A stretch of DNA of 64,000 bases from Defluviicoccus sp. (GTDB taxonomy: Bacteria; Pseudomonadota; Alphaproteobacteria; MPNO01), in assembly GCA_028821395.1 (NCBI GenBank), contig JAPPGP010000126.1, forward strand, positions 1 to 64,000. Direction: 5' to 3'. Below the pieces are notes generated by a model, which was not told the DNA's origin, did no database searches, and saw nothing but the letters and a program-made list of their open reading frames with translations. Below, piece by piece: positions 19,652 through 22,608 of this stretch (within the stretch, counting starts at the first letter, position 1; each line of letters begins with the position of its first letter). A program made the position numbers and the translations under genes.

Positions 19652-20137
19652 TCAGCCCGGCTCGTCGACGGCGATGGGAACCCCGGAGGCGTTCTTCGAG
19701 CTGCGCACGGCGAGCGCCGACTTGACGACGCTGACATTGGGCGCCGCGGTGAGCCGCGTCGTCAGGAAGCGCTGATAGGCGTCCCAGTCTGTCGCCACGA
19801 TCTTGAGCAGGAAATCGGTCTCCCCGGCCAGCATGTGGCACTCGCGGACCTCGGGCCAGGACTCTATCAGCGCTTCGAACGCGGTAAGGTCGGGCTCGGC
19901 CTGGCTGTGCAGCCCGACATTGGCGAACACCGTCACGCCGAAGCCGAGCGCCTCCGGATCGATCTCGGCGTGGTATCCGAGGATGCAGCCGGTCTCCTCC
20001 AGCGCCCGCACCCGGCGCAGGCAGGGGGGCGGCGAGATGCCGGCGCGGCGCGCCAGCTCGACATTGGTCATGCGCCCCTCCTCCTGGAGGTCGCGCAGAA
20101 TGCGAAGATCGATGCGGTCCAGCTTGACCCGGGCCAT
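19652..20137 (-). CDS. Lrp/AsnC-family transcriptional regulator
   Basis: 161 residues. An N-terminal AsnC-type helix-turn-helix (LDRIDLRILRDLQEEGRMTNVELARRAGISPPPCLRRVR) is followed by the RAM effector domain (VTVFANVGLHSQAEP, VRECHMLAGETDFLLKIV). The SPPPCLRRVR recognition helix is common in alphaproteobacterial Lrp next to trxB. It is transcribed away from trxB across a 170-nt AT-rich region and converges on the AhpD-like gene with an 11-nt gap. It probably regulates itself and perhaps trxB; the effector is unknown. Confidence 0.93.
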   Translation of the reverse strand: MARVKLDRIDLRILRDLQEEGRMTNVELARRAGISPPPCLRRVRALEETGCILGYHAEIDPEALGFGVTVFANVGLHSQAEPDLTAFEALIESWPEVRECHMLAGETDFLLKIVATDWDAYQRFLTTRLTAAPNVSVVKSALAVRSSKNASGVPIAVDEPG

Positions 20138-20308: not shown

Positions 20309-21262
20309 ATGTCCCAGACACGTCGCGCCAAGGTCCTGATCGTCGGCTCCGGACCGGCCGGCTACACGGCCGCGGTCTACGCCGCCAGGGCGGCGCTCGA
20401 CCCGGTCCTGGTCACCGGGATCGAGGTCGGCGGGCAGATGTCCATCACCACCGATGTCGAGAACTACCCTGGCTTCGCCGACGTCATCCAGGGGCCGTGG
20501 CTGATGGAGCAGATGCACCGCCAGGCGGAGAACGTCGGCACCGCCATGATCCATGACCTGATCGCCGAGGTCGACCTGTCGCGCCGGCCGTTCCGCTGCA
20601 CCGGCGACGGCGGCGACCTCTATCTCGCCGACACCCTGATCGTTTCGACCGGTGCCCAGGCGCGCTGGCTCGGCCTCGCCAGCGAGGCGGCGTTCCAGGG
20701 TTTCGGTGTCTCGGCCTGCGCCACCTGCGACGGCTTCTTCTTCCGCGGCCGGGATGTCGCGGTGGTGGGCGGCGGCAACACCGCGGTGGAAGAGGCGCTC
20801 TACCTCACCAACCATGCTTCCAGCGTGACCCTGATCCATCGCCGCGACGCGTTGCGGGCGGAAAAAATCCTGCAACAGCGCCTCTTCGCAAACGACCGGA
20901 TCGACGTGGTCTGGAACACGGTGGTCGAGGACGTGCTCGGCACCGAGGATCCCAAGGAGGTCACCGGGATCAGGCTGCGCGACGTGGCGTCGGGCGAGGC
21001 GTCCGAGCGCCCGGTGGCCGGCCTGTTCGTCGCCATCGGCCACGATCCGGCGACCGCACTGTTTCGCGGTCAGATCGACATGGACGCGGACGGCTATATT
21101 CAGACCGCCCCCGATTCGACGGTGACCAGCGTGCCGGGCGTGTTCGCCGCCGGCGACGTGCAGGACAAGATCTACCGCCAAGCGGTCACCGCCGCCGGCA
21201 GCGGCTGCATGGCGGCGCTGGAAGCGGAAAAATTCATCGCCGAGCACGCCGCCGCCGCGTAA
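20309..21262 (+). CDS. trxB: Thioredoxin-disulfide reductase
   Basis: 317 residues. The FAD-binding motif is [19 protein letters not shown] at the N-terminus. The redox-active disulfide is [12 protein letters not shown] near residues 136-139. The NADPH-binding motif is [15 protein letters not shown]. The terminal FAD block is [14 protein letters not shown]. Length is typical of low-molecular-weight TrxR. It transfers NADPH electrons to thioredoxin in the cytoplasm. Its closeness to the AhpD-like selenoprotein is suggestive because AhpD-type enzymes need a dithiol reductant, but lrp/trxB adjacency is common in alphaproteobacteria anyway. Confidence 0.95.
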
Positions 21263-21362
21263 TTGGCGGCGCCGCCGACCCGCGGCGGCATAGTCTCCGT
21301 CGCATGCGGGGCGAAACCGTTCGATCTATGCGTGAATTGCATAAGTGAGTTGTGTTATCGGG

Positions 21363-21560
21363 TATAGTACCGGGCCGCAGGTGGCACCATTTCCCGTTCA
21401 TCGCAAGGCGCTGCGGCGGCTGCACGCTCTCGGGGCTCAAGCGCCGTATCGCCTTAGCGTTCGGGCGCACAGTAGCGTCCGAAAGGGTCTTCGGACCCTA
21501 CGTCTCCCAGACGTGAAGCCTCCCTGTTACACTGGCCCGGAAATCCTAGATTTCCGGGCC
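21363..21560 (+). ncRNA. Structured small RNA candidate, about 170 nt (6S-like architecture)
   Basis: This 361-nt gap between trxB and the next gene has no convincing ORF. A -10-like TATAGT (21363-21368) is followed by CCGGGCC (21370-21376), which pairs with GGCCCGG at 21534-21540, so the RNA ends can close into one long rod. Inside are compact hairpins: GGCGCT/AGCGCC, TTCGG..CGC/GCG..CCGAA, GGGTC-TTCG-GACCC and ACGTCT/AGACGT. An intrinsic terminator follows at once. Size, closing stem and its own terminator resemble 6S RNA (ssrS), but I cannot match the sequence to the family with certainty. No tRNA-like T-arm is present, so it is not tRNA-Sec. It could be a long structured trxB 3' UTR. Confidence 0.5.
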
Positions 21561-21569
21561 TTCTTTTTG
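21534..21569 (+). terminator. Strong intrinsic terminator
   Basis: GGCCCGGAAATC and GATTTCCGGGCC form a perfect 12-bp stem with a CTA loop, followed directly by TTCTTTTTG. It is the clearest rho-independent terminator in the window and ends the small RNA candidate, and possibly trxB read-through. Confidence 0.92.
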
Positions 21570-21624: not shown

Positions 21625-22608
21625 ATGCGCGCGATGGTGTTGGACCGTCCCGGACAGCCTCTGACACCCGTCGAGCGCCGCGTGCCCGAGCCGCGCGCGG
21701 GCGAGGTCCTGATTCGGATATCGGCCTGCGGCGTCTGCCGCACCGACCTGCACATCGTCGACGGCGAGCTGGCGGAGCCGAAATTGCCGCTCGTGCCGGG
21801 ACACGAGGCGGTCGGGCGAATCGAGCGTCTGGGGGCCGGCGTCGGCGGGCTCGCGGAGGGTGAGCGGGTCGGGATGCCCTGGCTGGGCTGGACATGCGGG
21901 ACTTGCCGCTATTGCCGGGCGGGGCGAGAGAACCTGTGCCCGGACGCCGCGTTCAACGGCTACACGCGGGACGGCGGCTACGCCGATTACGCCCTTGCCG
22001 ATGCGCGCTACTGCTTCCCGGTCCGCGGCGATCTGGTCGACGCGGAAGCCGCCCCCCTGCTCTGCGCCGGTTTGATCGGCTACCGCTCGCTGCGCATGGC
22101 GGGGGACGCGGAGGCGATCGGGCTCTACGGCTTCGGCGCCGCCGCCCACATCGTCGCCCAGGTCGCCGCGCACCAGGGCCGGCAGATCTTCGCCTTCGTC
22201 CGCCGGGGGGACGAAGCGGCCCGCGCCTTCGCCCTGTCGCTCGGCGTGGTCTGGGCCGGCTGGTCCGACGAGCCGGCGCCCGAGCCGCTCGACGCGGCGA
22301 TTCTCTATGCCCCGGTCGGCGCGCTGGTGCCGGCGGCGCTACGCGCCGTGGCGCCGGGCGGCATCGTGGTCTGCGCCGGCATCCACATGAGCGACCTCCC
22401 GCCGTTCCCCTATTCCCTGCTCTGGCAGGAACGGCGCCTGGTCTCGGTCGCCAACCTGACGCGCCGCGACGGCGTGGAGTTCCTCCCGCTGGCCGCCGAG
22501 ATCCCGATCCGGCCGAGAGTCGCCACGATGCCGCTCGCGGAAGCCAATGCGGGGCTCGCCGCGCTGCGGAACGGCGCGGTATCGGGTGCGATCGTGCTCA
22601 CCACCTGA
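21625..22608 (+). CDS. Zinc-dependent alcohol dehydrogenase family protein
   Basis: 327 residues, ATG after GGGGAGACCTGC. This is the medium-chain dehydrogenase fold. The catalytic zinc region is ISACGVCRTDLHIVDG with PGHEAVG. The structural-zinc cysteines are CGTCRYCRAGRENLC. The nucleotide-binding motif is GLYGFGAAAHIVAQVA. The pattern matches the propanol-preferring AdhA-like branch. It oxidises an alcohol or reduces an aldehyde with NAD(P). It stands alone on the plus strand after the terminator; no partner genes are apparent. Confidence 0.9.
   Translation: MRAMVLDRPGQPLTPVERRVPEPRAGEVLIRISACGVCRTDLHIVDGELAEPKLPLVPGHEAVGRIERLGAGVGGLAEGERVGMPWLGWTCGTCRYCRAGRENLCPDAAFNGYTRDGGYADYALADARYCFPVRGDLVDAEAAPLLCAGLIGYRSLRMAGDAEAIGLYGFGAAAHIVAQVAAHQGRQIFAFVRRGDEAARAFALSLGVVWAGWSDEPAPEPLDAAILYAPVGALVPAALRAVAPGGIVVCAGIHMSDLPPFPYSLLWQERRLVSVANLTRRDGVEFLPLAAEIPIRPRVATMPLAEANAGLAALRNGAVSGAIVLTT

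Follow-up and report, generated by a model that had tools for sequence, protein, structure and literature searches.

A conserved small RNA downstream of trxB in Defluviicoccus, linked to vtlR in many Alphaproteobacteria and probably acting like AbcR1 and SorX

The interval between trxB and an alcohol dehydrogenase gene of Defluviicoccus sp. raises the question of which RNA it encodes and how that RNA could work. The window examined here is the whole stretch of 64,000 nucleotides in which this interval lies. Between trxB and the alcohol dehydrogenase gene, the list of open reading frames (ORFs) contains no real gene, in agreement with an earlier, sequence-only reading that had called the region gene-free. 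The same reading placed at 21363-21569 an unassigned structured RNA closed by a 6S-like stem. We find a real small RNA (sRNA) there, which is a threshold member of no Rfam family. With a probability of about 0.72, judged from comparisons of sequence and locus, it is a trans-acting anti-Shine-Dalgarno sRNA of a vtlR-linked kind that would work like AbcR1 and SorX.

A chain of hairpins with two exposed C-rich stretches

The stretch folds much better than its dinucleotide shuffles (z = -5.2). Strong internal hairpins and a perfect 12-bp terminator, both noticed in the sequence-only reading, are present, and the terminator stem at 21534-21560 is followed by a T run, TTCTTTTT. The features of the locus are listed in Table 1.

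Table 1 Features of the trxB-sRNA interval and its neighbours, in window positions
Feature	Position	Strand	Basis or remark
Lrp/AsnC-family regulator gene	19652..20137	-	ORF; Pfam AsnC_trans_reg/HTH_AsnC; divergent, upstream of trxB
trxB (thioredoxin reductase)	20309..21262	+	ORF; Pfam Pyr_redox_2; gene directly 5' of the sRNA
LysR-type palindrome TATGC-N7-GCATA	21327..21343	+	Upstream of the sRNA
VtlR/LsrB box GCAT-N3-TG-N3-T, GCATAAGTGAGTT	21339..21351	+	Exact match to the consensus of PMC8844928
-35-like ATAG	21364-21367	+	Within TATAGT; position kept in 43 aligned promoters, that of S. meliloti abcR1 among them
-10-like CCATTT	21387-21392	+	Position conserved in the same 43 promoters
Small RNA, ~169 nt (probable start)	~21400..21568	+	Predicted folds; conserved in relatives
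Hairpins of the sRNA	21402-21459, 21460-21483, 21484-21499, 21500-21514	+	Fold; followed by linker and terminator
Hairpin ACGUCUCCCAGACGU, loop CUCCCA (21504-21509)	21500..21514	+	Compensatory change in 5 of 6 pairs (63 sequences)
Single-stranded 19-nt linker GAAGCCUCCCUGUUACACU	21515..21533	+	Unpaired in folds
Anti-Shine-Dalgarno core CCUCCCUGUU	21519-21528	+	Inside the linker; nearly invariant (27-63 sequences)
Intrinsic terminator, perfect 12-bp stem and T run	21534..21568	+	3' end of the sRNA; covariation in 7 of 8 modelled pairs
Alcohol dehydrogenase gene	21625-22608	+	3' neighbour of the sRNA

Two C-rich stretches are exposed in this fold. The loop CUCCCA of the last hairpin is identical to AbcR motif M1 as defined in PMC5461406, and the anti-Shine-Dalgarno stretch GAAGCCUCCCUGUU is single-stranded between that hairpin and the terminator. 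AbcR1 and AbcR2 repress ABC-transporter mRNAs with a pair of anti-Shine-Dalgarno motifs, of which the first is located in a hairpin loop and the second between hairpins (PMC5461406, PMC8844928), and the window sRNA shows the same arrangement.

The closing stem and 6S RNA

The stem had been proposed between a 5' CCGGGCC and a 3' GGCCCGG, the latter shared with the terminator so that folding could be coupled to termination. The complementarity is there (21370-21376 against 21534-21540), but a meaningful stem is not. By chance, a 7-nt match of this kind would turn up in 31% of shuffled upstream sequences. Within the full transcript, the stem pairs with a probability of at most 0.0001, since its 3' strand is engaged in the terminator (probability 0.90-1.0), and 6.7 kcal/mol would be needed to force it. 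CCGGGCC occurs only in the window and the sister genome G002, whereas other members of the genus lack it yet keep the terminator strand, and the 5' strand of the stem would lie upstream of the probable transcript start. Neither formed nor conserved, the stem and the coupling derived from it were rejected as a chance complement on the pairing probability and the absence in genus mates.

A 6S RNA, or a 6S-like decoy of RNA polymerase, would agree with a length of ~170 nt and with complementary ends. However, the 6S model (RF00013) has no match in the window at curated or relaxed thresholds, and the 6S RNA gene of this genome is on another contig (G000:C147:19119-19275, 67 bits), which refutes 6S membership by sequence. 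The fold, a chain of hairpins, lacks the long closing stem and the large central bubble of 6S, and the likeness is limited to approximate length. The chance that the RNA belongs there is thus negligible. From the earlier proposal, the discrete structured RNA with its own terminator stands, strengthened by the conservation and covariation described below, and its 6S-like character falls.

A LysR-type operator and a conserved promoter register

An ATGC-N7-GCAT palindrome is found 5' of the sRNA in 40 of 52 loci (shuffles: mean 0.43, maximum 3), and its right half matches the LsrB/VtlR consensus. In Sinorhizobium, the consensus GCAT-N3-TG-N3-T lies at -61 to -49 of abcR1 (PMC8844928); the spacing from the LsrB box to the predicted sRNA start in the window equals that of S. 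meliloti PabcR1.

When 43 loci were aligned with the upstream palindrome as anchor, they had in common TATGCA-N5-TGCATGGCTGNNTTG, a T-G-rich -35-like element at positions 26-29 and a CTATNT-like -10 element at 49-54, and the S. meliloti abcR1 promoter fell in the identical register. TATAGT, previously taken as the -10 element with a start near 21370, coincides with the -35-like position of this conserved LysR-type promoter. It was therefore rejected as a -10 in favour of the conserved register, which puts the probable 5' end near 21400. Of the coordinates originally given, the 3' end is right and the 5' end is ~35 nt too early.

Conservation and covariation

DNA matches to the sRNA were found in 37 of 61 relatives, with the strongest conservation confined to the last 70-110 nt. 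A covariance model of the last 67 nt, here called R1, matched 137 of 289 alphaproteobacterial genomes. The window sRNA scores 77.9 bits with R1, having been among the sequences from which the model was built. Carriers of the exact core include Azospirillum, Reyranella, Kiloniella, Roseomonas, Inquilinus, Nisaea, Magnetovibrio and Acidocella.

In an R1 alignment of 63 sequences, double-sided changes occur in 12 of 14 pairs. The alignment has a covariation score of 0.444 (shuffles 0.111; slid controls 0.092 or less), and 97.3% of its cells are paired (shuffles 80%; slid controls 49% or less). Since the alignment was fitted to the structure, these counts lean toward structure, but a plain alignment shows double changes in the hairpin as well. 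Covariation, whose absence from relatives the sequence-only reading had named as evidence against its RNA, is thus present. Loop and linker seeds hardly vary, and the terminator stem varies by compensation. Judging from the alignments, this is the pattern that selection for the fold and for exposed C-rich seeds leaves in an RNA.

Relation to AbcR, SorX and aR8 RNAs

At curated thresholds, Rfam has no match in the whole window, and in 20 strong relatives that were scanned, no Rfam threshold was reached for this sRNA. Nor did other Rfam sRNA models, a check that had been suggested earlier, exceed their thresholds in the window. Under relaxed settings, suhB/MmgR (RF00519) was the best match of the window by bits (24.9 bits; gathering threshold 41), and SorX (RF02784) reached 23.0 bits (threshold 46.6), both covering the last 75 nt of the sRNA. 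Among the Azospirillum brasilense sRNA sequences given in published main text, it had no match.

The AbcR1/AbcR2 RNAs of Rhizobiaceae and Brucellaceae (ar15, RF02345) are alike in several respects. Their locus order, Lrp - trxB - vtlR/lsrB - sRNA, is also that of the family of the window RNA. The LsrB box and its distance to the promoter are common to both, and so is the series of M1 CUCCCA in the loop of a hairpin, another C-rich stretch between hairpins, and the terminator. In S. meliloti, where the same Lrp/AsnC-family neighbour is annotated, the order is Lrp (reverse) - trxB - lsrB - sRNA region - ArsR, and ar15 matches of 110 and 106 bits at this locus correspond to AbcR1 and AbcR2. On the other hand, covariance models give no match either way: ar15, validated on S. 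meliloti at 110 bits, finds nothing in the window up to E = 10 and nothing in the window genome, control genomes being equally silent, and R1 does not match S. meliloti AbcR1/2. The window also lacks vtlR, and its sRNA occurs singly, with an additional hairpin domain on the 5' side. Where AbcR has its second motif GUUCCCCUC, the window sRNA has CCUCCCUGUU; M2 GUUCCC is not present in the sRNA, the linker being GAAGCCUCCCUGUUACACU. Straight AbcR membership was rejected on the silent ar15 model and the missing M2, and what speaks for kinship with AbcR is the locus, the operator, the spacing of the promoter and the CUCCCA hairpin.

SorX of Rhodobacterales shares the stretch CCUCCCUGUU-N-GACU-GCC ahead of the terminator. 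It differs in that the window remains far below its threshold, that the CUCCCA hairpin is replaced in SorX, and that canonical SorX is released by RNase E from the 3' UTR of an ompR-type mRNA (PMC6238624), whereas the gene upstream of the window sRNA is trxB. In Paracoccus and Pseudorhodobacter, SorX-type RNAs that exceed the threshold (52.6 and 52.4 bits) lie directly after vtlR, as does a SorX-type RNA in another genome (G179). The canonical OmpR-linked SorX is a further copy (L074). R1 matches the Rhodobacterales copies, albeit weakly (31 and 22 bits), and not ar15, which gives sequence support for kinship with SorX.

The aR8 RNAs (suhB RF00519, MmgR, SisA-D) have a weak hairpin, an anti-Shine-Dalgarno CCUCCCU stretch and a terminator in the same order (PMC12559287), and suhB and ar15 belong to one Rfam clan, CL00108. 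Three genus mates (G001, G003, G004) carry a suhB (aR8) RNA at 35-40 bits, just under threshold. In the window genome, no suhB-type RNA was found besides the window sRNA.

Linkage to vtlR and its loss in the window lineage

The linkage to vtlR extends over the class. Counting orthologues at an E of 1e-60 or better, vtlR is in 167 of 289 alphaproteobacterial genomes. RNA and vtlR occur together in 126 genomes, the RNA alone in 11, vtlR alone in 41 and neither in 111 (Fisher p ~1e-31). Among the 100 genomes where both could be placed, there are 83 in which the sRNA follows the LysR gene vtlR/lsrB on the same strand at a distance of 145-623 nt (median 227). Orthologues of trxB are upstream of the sRNA in most relatives, where trxB precedes vtlR and the sRNA is usually separated from trxB by vtlR; in some genomes, the sRNA is far from both.

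In the window genome (G000) and its sister G002, vtlR is absent and the sRNA follows trxB directly on one contig, whereas the genus mates G001, G003 and G004 have vtlR at 91-100% identity. The closest LysR proteins of the window genome are paralogues with 36% and 33% identity. Both vtlR-less genomes retain the LsrB box; as to the palindrome, the window still has an intact left half, whereas that of G002 is altered. Compared with its genus mates, the window genome, together with one sister, has evidently lost vtlR and kept the RNA and the LsrB box.

Proposed action on ribosome-binding sites

The sRNA would be transcribed from ~21400 by the promoter with the upstream VtlR/LsrB box, exposing the two C-rich seeds, CUCCCA in the hairpin loop and CCUCCCUGUU between hairpin and terminator. 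These are predicted to pair with G-rich ribosome-binding sites, probably with the aid of Hfq, so as to prevent translation and destabilise mRNAs, above all those of solute-uptake systems. That the sRNA exists, its structure, conservation and locus, and the presence of the operator are shown by computation, whereas start site, Hfq, direct pairing, targets and physiological role are inferred. By analogy with AbcR and SorX, transporter mRNAs are probably those whose translation is blocked. With vtlR deleted from between trxB and the RNA, the sRNA would now have to be driven by another regulator, be transcribed constitutively, or be processed from the trxB transcript. Its promoter may even be inactive with vtlR gone; in G002, the palindrome is already partly eroded.

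When 10-nt and 9-nt seed complements were searched near start codons, many solute-binding proteins (ABC, TRAP, TTT) appeared, and likewise with a control site. Solute-binding proteins accounted for 8 of 27 starts with the seed-specific extension ACAGGGAGG and for 11 of 26 with the control ribosome-binding site CAAGGGAGG, where 3 of 19 were counted as evident orthologues without a Pfam run of their own. Uptake genes here often have strong ribosome-binding sites, and no seed specificity is visible in these counts; the targets of the sRNA therefore stay predicted ones.

Discussion

The loss of vtlR leaves room for a different origin of the transcript, in which RNase E releases the sRNA from the 3' UTR of the trxB mRNA as it does SorX, no promoter of its own operates in this lineage, and the mature form would comprise no more than the last 70-110 nt. 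This is how SorX, the nearest relative by sequence, is made (PMC6238624); the strongest conservation is confined to just that 3' portion, and only 138 nt, devoid of any terminator, separate the end of trxB from the predicted start. However, the LsrB box and the spaced promoter elements are kept in the window, the box consensus also in G002, and most relatives have the promoter between vtlR and the RNA. We regard this origin as rather unlikely, although an own promoter and processing of the trxB mRNA are not exclusive routes. A further proposal, that the sequence is a long 3' UTR of trxB with its terminator and has no role in trans, agrees with the position directly downstream of trxB but not with seeds that hardly vary throughout the class, in contrast to a terminator stem with compensatory changes, nor with relatives in which vtlR usually intervenes or copies are far from both genes. 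This proposal is very unlikely.

Membership in a divergent branch of aR8 (suhB/MmgR/SisA) deserves weight in that suhB is the best Rfam match by bits, the order of elements is common (PMC12559287), and the clan joins suhB with ar15. Yet 24.9 bits is well short of 41, the linkage is to vtlR and not to an N-formylglutamate amidohydrolase gene, and only the last 7 positions of the aR8 10-mer UUUCCUCCCU match the window's AAGCCUCCCU. Moreover, genuine aR8 copies are found alongside the sRNA within one genome: six relatives have a separate above-threshold suhB RNA elsewhere. Such membership is unlikely. The reading as a vtlR-linked anti-Shine-Dalgarno sRNA is the one we prefer.

AbcR and SorX have so far been treated as separate, order-specific sRNAs of stress and nutrient uptake, and our literature search found no paper naming both. 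An sRNA that spans the class, is unlisted in Rfam and sits at this one redox-linked locus would offer the two a common origin and a common regulator. We conceive that a trxB-vtlR-sRNA module could be ancestral to most Alphaproteobacteria, with AbcR in rhizobia, the vtlR-linked SorX-type RNAs in Rhodobacterales and the present RNA in Rhodospirillales and allies as diverged descendants; in the window lineage, sRNA and operator would have outlived their dedicated activator. The odds of this scenario seem about even to us. Some 100 genomes are available for testing whether the redox-sensing LysR regulator VtlR/LsrB always acts via an anti-Shine-Dalgarno RNA, and the two vtlR-less genomes offer a natural experiment on the rewiring of an sRNA after loss of its activator.

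Copies in other arrangements

Four genomes (G193, L072; G289, L073; G259; G291) have 2-6 copies of the sRNA each. Some of these copies follow vtlR in tandem, a single transcript then carrying several hairpins with a CUCCC loop; this is reminiscent of tandem AbcR1/2 and of multi-seed RNAs like NfeR1. On the 1.1-Mb plasmid pTM3 of Tistrella mobilis (L213, 6001-11809), vtlR and the RNA are ~4.9 kb apart, and G059, G187 and G284 show a similar separation. Plasmid p2 of Azospirillum brasilense (L212) carries a vtlR homologue (58% identity) with no sRNA downstream; the exact RNA core of this species is elsewhere (L137). In G002, a transposase gene of the Mutator/IS256 family (L002:2039-2959) lies ~300 nt downstream of the sRNA, suggesting that the locus there was disturbed by mobile DNA. 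An int-alpA RNA (L056:53-120, 50.9 bits) near one sRNA copy of G130 likewise hints at an adjoining integrated element.
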